Origin: a virus
Reading direction: 5' to 3' (one strand)
Virus record (IMG/VR): IMGVR_UViG_3300035698_005244
Span: 1 to 21,495 of that record
DNA: 21,495 bases
Shown: positions 2,146 to 10,594 of the stretch, piece after piece
Numbering within the stretch: the first letter of the stretch is position 1
How the letters are laid out: each line of letters starts with the position of its first letter
Made by a program: the position numbers and the translations under genes
Notes under the pieces: generated by a model
Databases searched by the model: none
Seen by the model: the letters and a program-made list of their open reading frames with translations, nothing else
What the model was told of the DNA's origin: nothing

Positions 2146-2391
2146 ACACCGAATCACAGAAAGTTATATTTAATTAGTTTTATTCGTTGAAGGGTTGATA
2201 TTTACCCAATGTGTAAACACTATTTATAGGCTGGCTGTTTACACTATTCTTTATATATATCAAAGGCTTGTAGAGGCGTGTAAACAAGCGGTTTAAAAAG
2301 TGTTTACATCTAAGCCATTGAAAAACCTCAATAAAACGGCATGTGTAAACAAAAACGTGTGTAAACAATAAAAACACATAGGCCTTGCACT

Positions 2392-2415
2392 TGTGCGCAT
2401 GTGTGCGCGTGTGTG
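2392..2415. other. Alternating purine-pyrimidine (Z-DNA-prone) tract
   Basis: A perfect 24-nt alternation of pyrimidine and purine made of TG, CG and CA steps, starting TGTGCGCATGTGTGCG. It lies between boxes 6 and 7 of the array in the longest G+C-rich patch of the control region. Such tracts favour left-handed DNA under negative supercoiling. The local structural effect is inferred from composition. Confidence 0.6.
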
Positions 2416-2458
2416 AGTGGGCGCGTATGAAGGGTGTGTTTACTGTATATCTGTTTAC

Positions 2459-2493
2459 ATATATATATATTTATATAAATTATATATATATAT
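2459..2493. other. 35-bp pure A/T tract (possible DNA-unwinding element)
   Basis: A run of 35 bases containing only A and T, mostly alternating TA, directly abutting box 8 (2453-2460) and close to an imperfect palindrome. Tracts like this melt easily and serve as unwinding elements in replication origins. Its position beside the box array is the reason for proposing that role. Confidence 0.55.
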
Positions 2494-2581
2494 CAGTGGC
2501 TTAGCATGGCAGCAAATATGGCAGCACTCCATTTTTAACTGTTTACACATTTTTCTAACCTATTGAAATATATAGATAATA

Positions 2582-2604
2582 GTGTAAACAGTTGTTGTTT
2601 ACAC
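2582..2604. promoter_or_regulatory. Perfect 23-bp operator-like dyad
   Basis: GTGTAAACA and TGTTTACAC form a perfect 9-bp inverted repeat around the 5-nt centre GTTGT. This is the tightest pair in the array and has the layout of a dimeric repressor operator. A GATAAT (2575-2580, 5 of 6 to a -10) ends 1 base before it, without a good -35. If that is a rightward promoter, the dyad covers its start site, ~80 bases upstream of the first virion-arm gene. Confidence 0.65.
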
Positions 2605-2672: not shown

Positions 2673-3014
2673 ATGGTACTACCAACAATCGGAGAAACAG
2701 TTAAATATATGCGCTACAATCAACAGCAAGCACTAGAGAAGGGTGAAGGCGTTGTTCTAGGTGTCAATCTAGATGTAAACAAAAGGTTGAGCGTTTTCAT
2801 CGAGCTTAGTAGCAAAGAGAAAATTAACGTTGATTTGGCTTGTGTTGATTATCAAGAGAGCTTTGTTGATGTTTATACAAAGGCAATCGAGGAGATTAAA
2901 GAGTTAAGCGAAGAAGGTAATAAGCGCGTTCAATCTGTTATTTCCGATTACAACAAACAAGTAGATTTGCTATATGATGATTTGCTTGGAAAACCTGTCG
3001 TTTTTAACGTATAA
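2673..3014 (+). CDS. Hypothetical protein, 113 aa, first gene of the rightward arm
   Basis: A 113-aa soluble protein. Residues 1-58 look like a small beta domain (GETVKYM, EGVVLGVNLD, LSVFIELSSKEKINVDL). Residues 64-105 form a charged helix, probably a coiled coil (YTKAIEEIKELSEEGNKRVQ). AAGGA lies ~9 bases before the ATG. The gene follows the control region and precedes the terminase small-subunit gene by 19 bases, so a packaging-associated or regulatory role is possible. I recognise no family. A TGTTTACAT-type box occurs inside the gene at 2773-2781. Confidence 0.75.
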   Translation: MVLPTIGETVKYMRYNQQQALEKGEGVVLGVNLDVNKRLSVFIELSSKEKINVDLACVDYQESFVDVYTKAIEEIKELSEEGNKRVQSVISDYNKQVDLLYDDLLGKPVVFNV

Positions 3015-3489: not shown

Positions 3490-4905
3490 ATGGCTAATGA
3501 TGTGCAATATTCAAGCTTGAAACTGCCAGAAATACTTGTTATTCCTCCAAAGCTACACCCGATCATTACTGATTTTAATAATTATATCTATTTTCTGCTA
3601 ATAGGCGGGCGGGGTTCTGCTAAGTCTCAATCAGTGGGCAGGCTTCTGCTTTATCTTGGTGAGGTTCGAAAGCTGCGTATTGTGTGCGGTCGTGAGATTC
3701 AAGCAAACATTGAAGAATCAGTGCACGCTTTACTTTCCGATTTAATCAGCCAATACGGCCTAGCTTATGACATATTCAAGCATGAGATTAGGCACAAGAC
3801 CAGTGGAACAGTATTTAAGTTCAAGGGTTTTAGGGAGCAGGGCAATGTTAGCGTGAAAGGTCTTGAGGGTGTTGATATCTTGTGGATTGATGAAGCCCAA
3901 AGCGTAACTAAAAGCACTCTTGATATCATCCTGCCTACATTGCGTAAAGAGCGGCTCATTAATGGCCGTTTGCAGTCGTCCAGAATCTTCTTTACTATGA
4001 ATAGATTCATGAGGGAGGATTCAGTCCCCGATGCTATGGCGGGAAACTCCGATTGCTTGCACATTGTAGTTAATTACTTTGACAATCCCTTTTGCCCTCT
4101 CAACCTAAAGGTGCTAGCTGAGAACACACGCAACAAGAGCGAGCGAGACTATAAGCATATATGGCTAGGTCAACCACTATCGCAAGCTGATGATTATCTA
4201 TTTAACTTTGAGAAGCTAGTGGCAGCCTTTGAGATAAAACCTTTTGGAGAGTTCCCTAAGAAACAACGGATACTTGCTATTGATTTTGCGGCGCAAGGCA
4301 ATGATCAGTGTGTTGCAACTGTTCTTGATCGTGTAAGTAACCAGCATTGGAACTTAACGGAGTCTTTGCCTTGGGATGAACCTGACACGATGATAAGCGT
4401 GGGCAAGATTGTCAACCTAATAGGGCAATTCAAGCCTGATGTTACTATCTTAGATATTGGCGGCATGGGCAAGCCTGTCTATGATCGGCTGGTCGAAGTC
4501 GGAATGAACATAGAGCCTTTTGACGGTGGAAGCACACAGGGCGTTGATATTAAGCATTACGCTAATAGGCGGGCGCTTGGTTACTTCACTCTTCGGGATT
4601 GGTTCGACTCTGGCTTTCTATGCGTAGATAGGAGGCAGCATGGCGAGGTTATCAAGCAACTAGAAAAAATCAAATTCAAGTACCGCTCTAACGGCTGCAA
4701 GTTGATACAAGCTAAGGTTGACATGAAAAAGGAACTTAAATACTCACCTGATGATGCTGATAGCTTGATGATGGCTGTTTTTGCAGCGGTTACACACCTA
4801 GGGCAATCATCAAATACTGGCTCCGCTTCATCAAATAAGACACCAGAAAGGCGGTCAAGGTCTTCGCGTGGTCACACTCCTTCGCGTGGTCGTGGAAATA
4901 AGTAG
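3490..4905 (+). CDS. terL: Terminase large subunit (packaging ATPase and nuclease)
   Basis: 471 aa, the normal length for the PBSX/Terminase_3-type family. The ATPase domain shows Walker A GGRGSAKS (residues 39-46), Walker B DILWIDEAQ (129-137; the E is the catalytic carboxylate) and the coupling motif RIFFTMN (165-171). The RNase H-fold nuclease domain shows acidic motifs AIDFA (D265), TILDIGG (D322) and SPDDADSLMMA (D421, D422, D424), which coordinate metal for DNA cleavage. TerL docks on the portal, pumps DNA into the procapsid using ATP and cuts the concatemer. The gene starts 6 bases after the small-subunit stop. An unusual Arg/Ser/Gly tail (residues ~450-471, RRSRSSRGHTPSRGRGNK) extends past the nuclease domain. 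All motifs are intact. Confidence 0.95.
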   Translation: MANDVQYSSLKLPEILVIPPKLHPIITDFNNYIYFLLIGGRGSAKSQSVGRLLLYLGEVRKLRIVCGREIQANIEESVHALLSDLISQYGLAYDIFKHEIRHKTSGTVFKFKGFREQGNVSVKGLEGVDILWIDEAQSVTKSTLDIILPTLRKERLINGRLQSSRIFFTMNRFMREDSVPDAMAGNSDCLHIVVNYFDNPFCPLNLKVLAENTRNKSERDYKHIWLGQPLSQADDYLFNFEKLVAAFEIKPFGEFPKKQRILAIDFAAQGNDQCVATVLDRVSNQHWNLTESLPWDEPDTMISVGKIVNLIGQFKPDVTILDIGGMGKPVYDRLVEVGMNIEPFDGGSTQGVDIKHYANRRALGYFTLRDWFDSGFLCVDRRQHGEVIKQLEKIKFKYRSNGCKLIQAKVDMKKELKYSPDDADSLMMAVFAAVTHLGQSSNTGSASSNKTPERRSRSSRGHTPSRGRGNK

Positions 4906-5313: not shown

Positions 5314-7119
5314 ATGGACAATCAATCAGACAAAAGAAACATTCAAGAGCTATGGTCTGGCTTGAAAGAAAACGGCGAGCGCTATAGACCTATATGGGAT
5401 GACATTTCCAAATACACAGGGATAACGGTAGAGCCTGATTATATGTGGCATAACAAAGGCGCAAAAGACCATGAGCTTGATGAATTTGTTGACGATCCTA
5501 CTAGTGCCATTAGTGTCAATCAATCTGGTGACTATCTTATTGGTATTATGTGGGGTTCTGGGCAAAAGGTATTTGATATTGTTCCTTCACGCTATGTTCT
5601 TGAGCTTGAAGATCAGGCTGTTATTGCTGATTGGTATAGTTTCTGCACAGATCAAACGCTATACCATATGAATCATGGTGATGGTGGCTTACATACGGCT
5701 TTGCGTCCATACGCTTATGATCAAATGAGTTTCGGCACTTCTGGCCTTGGTTGCTTCCCTAATAATGATTTTAAAGAAAAGCTAGCTGATAACGCTCTAA
5801 TATTCAGTAACTATGGAATTGACAACACAAGGATAGACGAAGGAAAGAGCGGTGTTCCTGATATCGTAGGTTGCACTTACCATTGGAAGGTAAATAGAAT
5901 TATAGCAGAATTTGCTACCGTTGGTGGTGTTATTGATGGTACACTGTTGGAGAAGCTACCGAAGTCTATCAAGAAAGCATATGAAGCTGGAAAACTCAAC
6001 GAAGAATTTGATATAGTGTGCCTAATCTTTCCGCGTTCTGATTTCGATCCTAAGTTGAAAGGCAAAAGATCGGCTAAGTATCGTGGTGTTTGGTTTATGG
6101 ATAGGGCAAATGAAAATAGTATCTTCTACGAAGAAGATTTCAAAGAAAAACCAATAGCGATAACTAGGCAGATCAAGGTTAGGGGGGAAGTCTATGGACG
6201 ATCTTCTGGCACTATCCTTATTAGCTCAATTCGTGCTGTCAATTTTCTGGTTGGGACTGTCATTGAGATACTCGAAAAAATGTCTCGTCCTTCTCTTGGT
6301 ATGTTTAATAACGCTATATTCGGTGATTCTGTTCTTGATACGTCTGCTGACGGAATAACGATATTTAATAGTGCTATGGCTGGTAATGCTAAAACTCCTA
6401 TGTTCCCTATACATGATGTAGGTGATCCAAGTGGCATTATTAATTTTCTGGTTCCTTATTTGAATGATAAGATAACCACAGCTTTTAAGGTTGATGCTTT
6501 ACTTGATTTCAATAACTCAAAAGATATGACGGCCACGGAAAGCTTGCAGCGCTTTGCTATACGCGGCAAATCTATTTCTGGAATGTTACAGCAGCAAAAG
6601 GTTGAAGGCTTAGAGCCTCTATGCAAGCGGGCTATATCTGTTCTTCTTGATATGGGTGAGTTGGGAGTAGATCCTAGTATTGATGAAGAAAGAGCAGAGT
6701 CTTTACGCTCTAGGGGTAAGAGTGAGCGTGTTATTCCTCAAGCTGTACTTGATGTTATGGAAAGTGGCCGCCCTTGGTTTGAATTAAAGTTCAACAATGA
6801 GATGGAAAAGCTAATGCGTACTGAGGCAGTTCAAAACCTGCTACAAATATTACAAGCTATTACTGCTATAGCTGCTCTTTATCCAGAGATCATACAAGGC
6901 GTTAACTGGTATAAATTACTAAAAGATATCAATGATAACCTTGATTACAATAACCAAATACTAATGAGTGAAGTTGCGTTCAAGGAGCAAGTAGCACAAG
7001 CCGCACAAGCTAGGGCTGCCGCTATGCAAATGCAAGCAGGCCAAGTTAATGCTGCAACGCAAAAGGATTCTGCACAAGCAAACAAAACACAAAGAGAGGC
7101 TGAGAATGTCGGAGTCTAA
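5314..7119 (+). CDS. Portal (head-tail connector) protein
   Basis: 601 aa, in the size range of podovirus head-tail connector proteins (T7 gp8 / Bbp21-like). The N-terminus has the typical LWSGLKENGERYRPIWDDISKY, followed by NQSGDYLIGIMWG and PSRYVLELEDQAVIADWYSF. The middle shows YGRSSGTILISSIRAVNFLV (the connector 'YGRGP..A..D...LN' region), DLLDFNN-like VDALLDFNNSKDMTATESLQRF and a helical core. The C-terminal ~45 residues are Ala/Gln-rich coiled coil, expected to line the portal barrel. Twelve subunits form the DNA channel at one capsid vertex, bind TerL during packaging and later the tail adaptor. Positioned directly after terminase as usual; its 3' end overlaps the next gene by 14 bases. 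Confidence 0.9.
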   Translation: MDNQSDKRNIQELWSGLKENGERYRPIWDDISKYTGITVEPDYMWHNKGAKDHELDEFVDDPTSAISVNQSGDYLIGIMWGSGQKVFDIVPSRYVLELEDQAVIADWYSFCTDQTLYHMNHGDGGLHTALRPYAYDQMSFGTSGLGCFPNNDFKEKLADNALIFSNYGIDNTRIDEGKSGVPDIVGCTYHWKVNRIIAEFATVGGVIDGTLLEKLPKSIKKAYEAGKLNEEFDIVCLIFPRSDFDPKLKGKRSAKYRGVWFMDRANENSIFYEEDFKEKPIAITRQIKVRGEVYGRSSGTILISSIRAVNFLVGTVIEILEKMSRPSLGMFNNAIFGDSVLDTSADGITIFNSAMAGNAKTPMFPIHDVGDPSGIINFLVPYLNDKITTAFKVDALLDFNNSKDMTATESLQRFAIRGKSISGMLQQQKVEGLEPLCKRAISVLLDMGELGVDPSIDEERAESLRSRGKSERVIPQAVLDVMESGRPWFELKFNNEMEKLMRTEAVQNLLQILQAITAIAALYPEIIQGVNWYKLLKDINDNLDYNNQILMSEVAFKEQVAQAAQARAAAMQMQAGQVNAATQKDSAQANKTQREAENVGV

Positions 7120-8594: not shown

Positions 8595-9440
8595 ATGTCA
8601 AGAAAGAAAAACCAAAACAACGTTACAGAAACAATGAGTATTGGCGGTGAAAAGCTTCCGTTTATTAACGATGACGGCGATGCGTTAATGACAAGAGCAG
8701 AGTTTGAGGCATCTAATAAAAAAAGCGAAGATGAAAAAATAGATAAAGATGGTGGTGATGATTTCTTTGAAGTTACTATTTCGGGTTCTTATTATGATTC
8801 CCGCAAGGAAATTATCGACTATGACGATGTGAAAGTTAAGATTCCAGCTTGCGATAAAGACGCAGTACAAATGCATGTTCAAGGTCGTTACGCTGTCGCT
8901 GCTATTAAATCTACGATTAAAGAAAACGGCGATCCTAAGTATCCACAAAGAATTGATAAAATAAGACAAGTGCATATAGATGATGTTGTTGAAACTAAAG
9001 GTAAGTACACTTTTGTCGGGCAGGATATTAGAAAATTAAGTTTAGACGAAATGCAAGATTTAGCTGTTCGTAAGGATCTGCGGTTTATCCCGCTTCCAAA
9101 GTCTGGCCTTGATAGGCGGGAAATGGCTACTAGGGTATATGTTGCGTTTTCTAGTAAGGTTCTTAATAGAGAAATTAAATACCAAGATGAAGCATTTAAT
9201 CTTTCTAAAGAGCCTGTTGTAATTGCTGATGGTCGCAAAAGAATTGAGGGAAGCTCTAAAATAACCAATGAAGAAATGATCGAAAAAGAGCAAACTAATA
9301 AATCTCAATATGGATCAAGAGACAATCCAAAAAACAGGTTTACTATTGAGGAATTAAAATCCATTGCTTCTGACAAAGGCATAGAGTACCCCGAAAACTT
9401 TGGGTTTGATGACCTTTACAGACGCTTATTTTCGGGCTAG
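8595..9440 (+). CDS. Unrecognised protein between scaffold and capsid genes, 281 aa
   Basis: A soluble 281-aa protein. Residues 1-57 are charged and likely disordered (SNKKSEDEKIDKDGGDD). Residues ~58-130 look beta-rich (FFEVTISGSYYDSRKEI, DVKVKIPACDKDAV). Residues ~140-205 contain TFVGQDIRKLSLDEMQDLAV and REMATRVYVAFSSKVLNREI. The last ~35 residues (RFTIEELKSIASDKGIEYP...DDLYRRLF) resemble a SAP/HeH-like helix-extended-loop-helix, known in other proteins for DNA or capsid-tip contacts. I cannot assign a family. AAGGAAC lies upstream and the gene is 12 bases after scaffold. It is the last gene before the terminator at 9465, so a virion or assembly role is likely. Confidence 0.75.
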   Translation: MSRKKNQNNVTETMSIGGEKLPFINDDGDALMTRAEFEASNKKSEDEKIDKDGGDDFFEVTISGSYYDSRKEIIDYDDVKVKIPACDKDAVQMHVQGRYAVAAIKSTIKENGDPKYPQRIDKIRQVHIDDVVETKGKYTFVGQDIRKLSLDEMQDLAVRKDLRFIPLPKSGLDRREMATRVYVAFSSKVLNREIKYQDEAFNLSKEPVVIADGRKRIEGSSKITNEEMIEKEQTNKSQYGSRDNPKNRFTIEELKSIASDKGIEYPENFGFDDLYRRLFSG

Positions 9441-9464
9441 TATAAACACACGCACCCACCAAGG

Positions 9465-9498
9465 AAAGGCCACCTCTTCGATTAGGTGGTCTTTTTTT
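9465..9498 (+). terminator. Rho-independent terminator before the capsid gene
   Basis: GGCCACCT (9468-9475) pairs with AGGTGGTC (9484-9491), an 8-bp stem with one G-U pair and an 8-nt loop. It is followed by seven T residues (9492-9498) and can be extended by the A's at 9465-9467. It lies 25 bases after the stop of the 281-aa gene and ends the packaging/scaffold transcription unit. Confidence 0.88.
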
Positions 9499-9500
9499 GT

Positions 9501-9528
9501 TTGTAAACGTAATTTTTTATGCAATAAT
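9501..9528 (+). promoter_or_regulatory. Possible sigma70-type promoter for the capsid module
   Basis: TTGTAA (9501-9506, 4 of 6 to -35), a 16-bp spacer, and AATAAT (9523-9528, 5 of 6 to -10), directly after a terminator and ~140 bases before the capsid start codon. The -35 overlaps TTGTAAAC (9501-9508), a 7-of-8 match to the GTGTAAAC boxes in the control region; this could be chance. The long untranslated leader up to 9667 contains no gene I can support. Confidence 0.45.
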
Positions 9529-9667
9529 GTATTTTATTGGATACGTGTTACTAATTTACGCCCCGATTTGCGGTTAAGCTGCCCAAAAATGCTAGAAGCC
9601 CTTACAAGGATACCTTCGATAAAACTAATAAAGCAAATCATATTCAATTTTTTTTGGAGCATTTAAA

Positions 9668-10594
9668 ATGTCCTCTACAATTTCACCAAATATTGACCAA
9701 GCTGCTCAACAAAATTTCCTAGATAGTTTCCATGAGTTAGCGCAACAAACAAAATCAAAGTTAGTTGCTACCAACGCGGTTAAGTATTTAACCTCTAAGG
9801 GTAAAACTAACAACATGGCTCGCATAGGCCGTATTGAGCTTACAGAAGTTGATTCTCGCAACCCTGATAAGCAGTATGGTGATTACAGTGTTGATAACCG
9901 CCAGTTCAGCAAAAGACGCTTTACTAAAACAATCACGATTGATGCTAAACATGATATCAACGAATTAATTAAAGATCCTACATCTGATATCCTAGCTCAA
10001 CTTGACCATGCAAAAAATCGCGTTACTGACCGTATCGCAATTGCTGCTGCTGTCGGTGCTGTTTTGACTGGCGCTCCTGATGCCGCGCCAACCTCCACAT
10101 CTGCCGCTACTGATGGCGTTCTAACCATCTCTGGCACTGCTGGATTCACTTATGGTGTTGTAAAATCTATCACTCAAAACTTCATTAATAATGATGTTGA
10201 TTTCAGTGTATTCTCTGGTTCTACAATTTGTGTGACTGGTAAAGAAAACAGCGATCTTATGAGCGAAGTTGAGTTTATCAACAACGATTACATGAGAGGC
10301 ACGCCTGTTGCTTCTGGTATTATGGATAATGCTGGCACGTATCGCGTCCAGCTTTTTGCTGGTTCTGAAAACGGTGGCATTACTGTTAACAATCCGATCC
10401 TCCCAGAGGGAGCAAGTACACGTAGTTGTGTTGTTCTTGCACCTGGAAGTATCGCTATGTCCATGGAGCTTGATTCACTTGATGTTACTAAATCAACTTC
10501 AAAAGTAAATTCATACGATATCACGATTGATTTCTGGATTAATGCTATGCGTACAGAAGGTGTTCTTGTTCAAATTATCACTACTACGCTTTAG
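9668..10594 (+). CDS. Major capsid protein (Bbp17-like)
   Basis: 308 aa, similar in length to BPP-1-type capsid proteins (Phage_capsid_2-like). Typical features are an N-terminal helix with QQNFLDSFHELAQQTKSKL (14-32), YGDYSVDNRQFSKRRFTKTI (70-89), TSDILAQLDHAKNRVTDRIA followed by AAAVGAVLTGAP (105-137), and a C-terminal strand region with VNSYDITIDFWINAMRTEGV. It is expected to have the HK97 fold and form the icosahedral shell. The gene has its own long leader after a terminator and a clear GGAG 9 bases before the ATG, fitting high-level expression. It follows scaffold and precedes a decoration-type gene. No delta domain or N-terminal cleavage site is evident. Confidence 0.88.
   Translation: MSSTISPNIDQAAQQNFLDSFHELAQQTKSKLVATNAVKYLTSKGKTNNMARIGRIELTEVDSRNPDKQYGDYSVDNRQFSKRRFTKTITIDAKHDINELIKDPTSDILAQLDHAKNRVTDRIAIAAAVGAVLTGAPDAAPTSTSAATDGVLTISGTAGFTYGVVKSITQNFINNDVDFSVFSGSTICVTGKENSDLMSEVEFINNDYMRGTPVASGIMDNAGTYRVQLFAGSENGGITVNNPILPEGASTRSCVVLAPGSIAMSMELDSLDVTKSTSKVNSYDITIDFWINAMRTEGVLVQIITTTL

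Follow-up and report, generated by a model that had tools for sequence, protein, structure and literature searches.

What is the role of eleven closely similar boxes, set in both orientations within 394 bp between two divergent operons of a tailed phage? The array in question occupies positions 2211-2604 of a 21,495-base IMG/VR fragment (the window, by which we mean the whole stretch analysed), the head-tail genes of which are podovirus-like. Comparison of box sequence, spacing and gene context indicates that it is very probably an iteron-based replication origin of the type found in the satellite P4 and in Staphylococcus aureus pathogenicity islands (SaPIs). An initial annotation of the array had proposed a new initiator/iteron or repressor system. 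The initiator/iteron part of that proposal is retained here; a repressor is not needed, and the system would not be new, the origin type being that of P4.

Composition and spacing of the array

The array consists of eight TGTTTACAC boxes, two TGTTTACAT boxes and one core-only TGTTTACTG box (Table 1), and all of the copies initially counted (8 exact, 2 with one mismatch and 1 core-only, in both orientations) were recovered. With at most one mismatch, the 9-mer occurs 15 times in the window compared with 4.97 +/- 2.17 in shuffled sequences, none of 100 of which reached 15. Exact TGTTTACA 8-mers number 10 in a 501-bp segment, whereas 2000 shuffles average 0.10 and never exceed 2, and any other 8-mer is present in three copies or fewer per 400-bp stretch of the window. 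Searches for an RNA element gave neither an Rfam family nor a tRNA.

The arrangement of the boxes is also regular. A convergent pair, TGTTTACAC on the + strand followed by GTGTAAACA on the - strand, recurs three times (2236/2278, 2301/2343 and 2540/2582) with 42 bp between 9-mer starts; expressed as 8-mers, the pairs are always TGTTTACA on the + strand and then TGTAAACA, and the distance is 43. These values replace the 41-bp, reverse-to-forward spacing of the initial annotation. When 10 boxes are placed at random, three forward-to-reverse (F-R) pairs at exactly 43 are expected with a probability of ~2.5e-5, and any one F-R distance occurring three times with a probability of ~7e-4. From left to right the 8-mer gaps run 24, 43, 22, 43, 16 and, further right, 43 and 13, the remaining close spacings being 24 and 22 (R-F), 16 (R-R), 15 (F-F) and 13 (R-F). 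The nearest boxes in the same orientation are therefore 15 and 16 bp apart; tandem boxes at 9-11 bp, for which no requirement is known, are common in sister arrays.

A closely similar geometry is annotated in P4. The 'ori type 1 repeats' of the P4 record (NC_001609) are TGTTCACC, with gaps of 9, 43, 18 and 14 in each crr repeat and of 10, 11, 22, 43 and 10 in ori. The box of the window is one base from the core of this alpha-protein type 1 iteron and shows the same 43-bp convergent spacing, and the statement that no known phage initiator has such a box can no longer be upheld.

Table 1. Coordinates of the iterons, associated tracts and neighbouring genes in the window.
Feature	Position	Strand	Remark
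Whole iteron array, inferred replication origin	2211..2604		Inside divergent intergenic region 2058-2672
Iteron TGTTTACAC	2211..2219	-	
Iteron TGTTTACAC	2236..2244	+	Left arm of 43-bp convergent pair 1
Iteron TGTTTACAC	2278..2286	-	Right arm of pair 1
Iteron TGTTTACAT	2301..2309	+	Left arm of pair 2
Iteron TGTTTACAC	2343..2351	-	Right arm of pair 2
Iteron TGTTTACAC	2359..2367	-	
24-bp perfect alternating purine-pyrimidine tract TGTGCGCATGTGTGCGCGTGTGTG	2392..2415		Between iteron sets; similar tract aligned in L010
Iteron-like TGTTTACTG	2437..2445	+	Core only
Iteron TGTTTACAT	2452..2460	+	
35-bp AT-only tract, candidate melting element	2459..2493		Iterons on both sides; tract also in L010
Iteron TGTTTACAC	2540..2548	+	Left arm of pair 3
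Iteron TGTTTACAC	2582..2590	-	Right arm of pair 3
Iteron TGTTTACAC	2596..2604	+	Inverted repeat with 2582-2590
113-aa protein of unknown function	2673..3014	+	First gene of rightward operon; homologues at E 8e-20, 1e-13 and 1e-8
Terminase large subunit	3490..4905	+	Query for finding relatives
Portal/head-tail adaptor	5314-7119		
Major head protein	9668-10594		

The box and its spacing in other loci

IMG/VR was scanned with the pattern TGTTTACA-N32..38-TGTAAACA-N1..31-TGTWWACA. This three-box pattern, with its 43-bp pair, was found in 45 loci, many of them true arrays of 5-12 boxes, compared with 4 loci when the box was written backwards. A spacing variant, TGTTTACA-N46..52, returned 33 loci, and for the most part these are iteron arrays as well, their F-R distances peaking at 54-55 bp, longer by one helical turn; it is therefore no negative control, and the backward-motif scan serves as one.

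In ~31 of the fetched loci, near-duplicates among them, local profiles place the array within ~45 bp of the vapE stop codon. The usual gene order, derived from gene clustering and Pfam, is VapE-type primase-helicase (PF05272), array, VRR-NUC protein and SNF2-type helicase, with DNA polymerase A, an Enc34-type single-stranded DNA (ssDNA)-binding protein and DUF2800 also nearby. This order is present in viral contigs and in genome or metagenome-assembled genome (MAG) records of Bacillaceae, Ruminococcus, Lachnospiraceae and others. Rather than always marking a divergent junction, as was initially considered, the boxes mostly follow vapE between co-directional replication genes. A second set of loci (L016, L018, L021 and L024 among them) resembles the window in that the array stands just upstream of terminase genes; L018 encodes VapE, VRR-NUC and SNF2 proteins, yet its array lies by the terminase genes and away from vapE.

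The same module is also accompanied by boxes of other sequence. A scan for the sister box TGTTGACA gave 47 loci, each with a cluster of at least three boxes, and vapE lies no more than 60 bp away in 30 of them. Among isolated phages, the gap between vapE and the VRR-NUC gene contains TGTTGACA in Listeria phage LWP01, TGTTGCAT in Staphylococcus phage LH1, TGTTGCAG in Paenibacillus phage ABAtENZ and GGTTGTCC in Corynebacterium phage SamW. Convergent distances peak at 43-44, 52-55 and ~65 bp, about one helical turn apart, the first two peaks being favoured by the choice of scan patterns.

Clusters of TGTTTACA were also seen outside this setting. Ferruginibacter MAG contigs (L110, L114, L146, L147 and L153) carry regular arrays in which RR and FF pairs alternate at intervals of 12-15 bp; no replication gene among those tested lies nearby, and the arrays may represent another use of the box. 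Archaeal clusters are present in Thermoplasmata (L136, 13 boxes in 350 bp) and Nitrosocosmicus (L131, 4 boxes), where a VapE match is absent.

The candidate initiator and melting region

The VapE proteins encoded beside TGTTTACA arrays are homologous to SaPI5 PriRep1 in both the helicase core and the C-terminal domain. The core matches PriRep1 (7pds) with an E value of 1.7e-76, and a profile of the C-terminal 142 residues matches 7pds_A at 7.8e-16. A predicted model of this C-terminal part (pLDDT 81), compared by VIA-align, gave 'PriRep1 with dsDNA' with a Z score of 13.7 over 107 residues (rmsd 2.5), the next row scoring 5.4. The P4 origin-binding domain (1ka8) is absent from the VIA-align rows for this model, and kinship with it may nonetheless exist.

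Within the array, boxes at 2211-2460 and 2540-2604 form two sets around the AT-only tract at 2459-2493, an arrangement published for the origins of SaPIs and other phage-inducible chromosomal islands (PICIs). The perfectly alternating purine-pyrimidine tract is 24 bp long, and the longest such run elsewhere in the window is 11 bp. Runs of at least 14 bp are present in 15 of 48 origin regions compared with 4 of 838 control stretches of the same loci; because the threshold was picked after the data had been seen and the loci are in part related, the excess is best treated as a lead, short of proof. In L010, a relative of the window, the AT-rich and alternating tracts (near 6513-6544) align with those of the window despite differing boxes. 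Alternating purine-pyrimidine tracts can form Z-DNA. It is conceivable, if rather improbable, that the TGTTNACA iteron with 43-bp (and ~54-bp) convergent phasing, often joined by such a Z-DNA-prone tract, makes up a single origin format common to several different types of primase-helicase among Firmicutes and Bacteroidetes phages; in that case the alternating tract would be a functional origin element not described before. A layout near that of the window was noted in L258 (5058-5353), where a TGTTGACA array, the two box sets of which enclose an alternating tract and an AT tract, lies between a CHC2/SF3-type primase gene and terminase genes.

Neighbouring genes and relatives of the window

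Three genes, encoding proteins of 106, 107 and 323 aa, run leftward on the left side of the array; the nearest starts at 2057, and the end of the fragment follows shortly. The 323-aa protein bears the PHROG name 'primase', but Pfam detects no primase domain in it and a search of IMG/VR found no relative, and it offers no clue to the protein that binds the boxes. No close DNA match to the window was found among annotated phages.

The terminase relatives L009-L012 show 53-77% identity. Relatives with capsid as well as terminase genes in common with the window lack its box. In G004, the contig of L012, an array of eleven TGTCCCAC boxes, with gaps of 42/43, 24 and 9 bp, comes after vapE and before the gene for a homologue of the 113-aa protein; as stored, its terminase genes lie at the opposite end, and adjacency to the array assumes a circular or permuted map. 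In the same contig, at 9300-9900 (L074), CATCGCCA occurs 15 times in a coding tandem repeat with Ala/Leu/Met-rich frames, between genes for an ssDNA-binding protein and a DNA polymerase. In L010, ten TCTGCCA boxes precede the genes for the 113-aa homologue and the terminase, and the leftward operon encodes a Toprim/AAA primase-helicase that is 36% identical to that of L014. Two ATGGCAGCA copies lie within the window's own array (2506-2514 and 2518-2526); the L010 iteron is ATGGCAGA/TCTGCCA, and the copies might be remnants or might constitute a second type of box. The 113-aa homologue also precedes the terminase genes in L011, a close structural relative, where TGCTAGCA repeats inside a 202-aa O-like gene (6030-6235), followed by a gene for a DnaB-like helicase, look like a lambda-type origin. 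Judged from these sequences, the position of the array appears to be conserved in two relatives (L010 and G004) and the box to vary along with the replication module, and differing iterons in terminase relatives are predicted by swapping of such modules.

Alternative explanations

Several observations weigh against a P4/SaPI-type origin at this locus. Profile searches detected no VapE, SNF2 or other initiator gene in the 21.5-kb window, an incomplete genome, in agreement with the initial remark that no gene in it is an obvious binder. The array adjoins genes for the 106-aa (-) and 113-aa (+) proteins and no rep gene, whereas SaPI/PICI origins are expected immediately 3' of rep. Related phages with the same genes and no boxes, named at the outset as grounds for doubt, were encountered in part: L009-L012 have no TGTTTACA cluster (the upstream sequence of L009 and L012 is short), L010 and G004 carrying other iterons at the syntenic place, and no other array like the window's TGTTTACA array was found among ~70 terminase-related loci. 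Arrays of TGTTTACA also occur with other primase types, DUF3987/Prim-Pol beside them (L013 and L020) or CHC2-type near them (L014 and L015), and 46 of the 94 loci with at least four boxes are without such a primase gene in the available DNA, many of these loci being fragments and some of them bacterial or archaeal contigs. The tandem 9-10-bp boxes of P4 are missing in the window as well.

Other functions for the array have to be set beside these points. Its position exactly between the divergent leftward (106/107/323-aa) and rightward (113-aa, terminase) operons would suit an operator array through which a phage or host transcription regulator controls both, and promoter-like matches overlap it. 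These matches are not above shuffles, however (3 vs 3.9), the array elsewhere lies mostly between co-directional replication genes right after vapE, and its geometry equals that of P4's annotated origin repeats. Eleven boxes across 394 bp would also be long for an operator, and we consider this function improbable. A packaging (pac/cos) site, or an array bound by the terminase small subunit upstream of terS, is very improbable: although the boxes stand just upstream of the small-terminase gene in the window, L016, L018, L021 and L024, the candidate small-terminase proteins next to them belong to unrelated types and yet have one box in common, and most arrays are near vapE and away from terminase genes. 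Recombinase arm sites (attP) and parS-like partition arrays likewise contain clusters of short inverted boxes at close to helical spacing, but the attP arm repeats of P4 are a different, separately annotated repeat, there is no integrase among the window genes read, and the association is with primase-helicase genes; we regard a site of either kind as extremely improbable.

A further alternative concerns the reader of the boxes. The array could still be an origin and be recognized by a host factor or by one shared protein instead of a cognate primase-helicase, and the presence of one TGTTTACA box with VapE-, DUF3987- and CHC2-type initiators is consistent with such a factor. This seems improbable as well, given that the same module is found with differing boxes (TGTTTACA, TGTTGACA, TGTTGCAT, TGTTGCAG and GGTTGTCC), that relatives of the window differ too, and that the C-terminal domain of SaPI Rep is the iteron reader (PMC7581432). 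Box differences of this kind are what a phage-encoded specificity would be expected to produce.

Proposed mechanism and comparison with known origins

To return to the P4/SaPI-type origin, the sequences show the anatomy of the array and the family relations; we infer that this phage has an initiator of the P4/SaPI/VapE family, the gene for which lies outside the fragment, that this protein recognizes the boxes, and that the array is where replication begins. In the mechanism that we propose, the C-terminal winged-helix domain of a primase-helicase encoded by the phage (VapE or a relative of the AAA+/SF3 type) would bind the TGTTTACAY iterons, and convergent boxes 43 bp apart, or about four helical turns, would set up oppositely oriented helicase assemblies. 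The AT-only tract at 2459-2493, near the alternating purine-pyrimidine tract, would then melt, and helicases could load themselves at the melted stretch and travel away from each other; replication, primed by the phage primase, would start.

An unexplained repeat thereby becomes a testable origin, and likely origins in uncultured phages can be located, with no more than their sequence, by a simple pattern of TGTTNACA pairs at a distance of 43 bp. The arrays also provide a naturally varied set of box specificities (TGTTTACA, TGTTGACA, TGTTCACC, TGTTGCAT, TGTTGCAG and others) together with C-terminal domains that may read them. Arrays are present in many tailed phages, in some of them beside the terminase genes, a place at which an origin could be exchanged with or apart from its initiator, and the spread of one layout across many phages is the more interesting part of the finding.

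The P4 origin shares with the array 8-bp iterons with a TGTT core in both orientations (in the window, eleven boxes of TGTTTACAY/TG), a convergent pair at 43 bp, present in ori and in both crr repeats of P4 and three times in the window, and a close R-F spacing, 22 bp in ori and 22 and 24 bp here. It differs in that the box of the window is TGTTTACAY, that there is a single array in the available sequence as opposed to ori plus crr, that the initiator gene lies outside the fragment, and that P4 is a satellite whereas the window comes from a tailed phage. For SaPI and PICI elements (SaPI5 PriRep1 and SaPIbov1 Rep), the likeness lies in the VapE homology described above; SaPI Rep recognizes iterons by its C-terminal domain (PMC7581432), and PICI origins are located just 3' of rep and always have an AT-rich region enclosed by two sets of iterons (PMC6092414). 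Because the window's array is flanked by no rep gene, we take it to work like a PICI origin but do not file it as one. In the vapE-VRR_NUC-SNF2 module of Listeria LWP01 and Staphylococcus LH1, the iteron array lies in the vapE/VRR-NUC gap, and the Listeria box, TGTTGACA, is one base off that of the window and forms a convergent pair at 44 bp. The window differs from this module in that its array adjoins the terminase operon, a relocation that also occurs in L018, where the module is present. In our reading, the array of the window adds one more specificity to a known origin type: it has a box of its own and a place beside the terminase operon, and is no new system.
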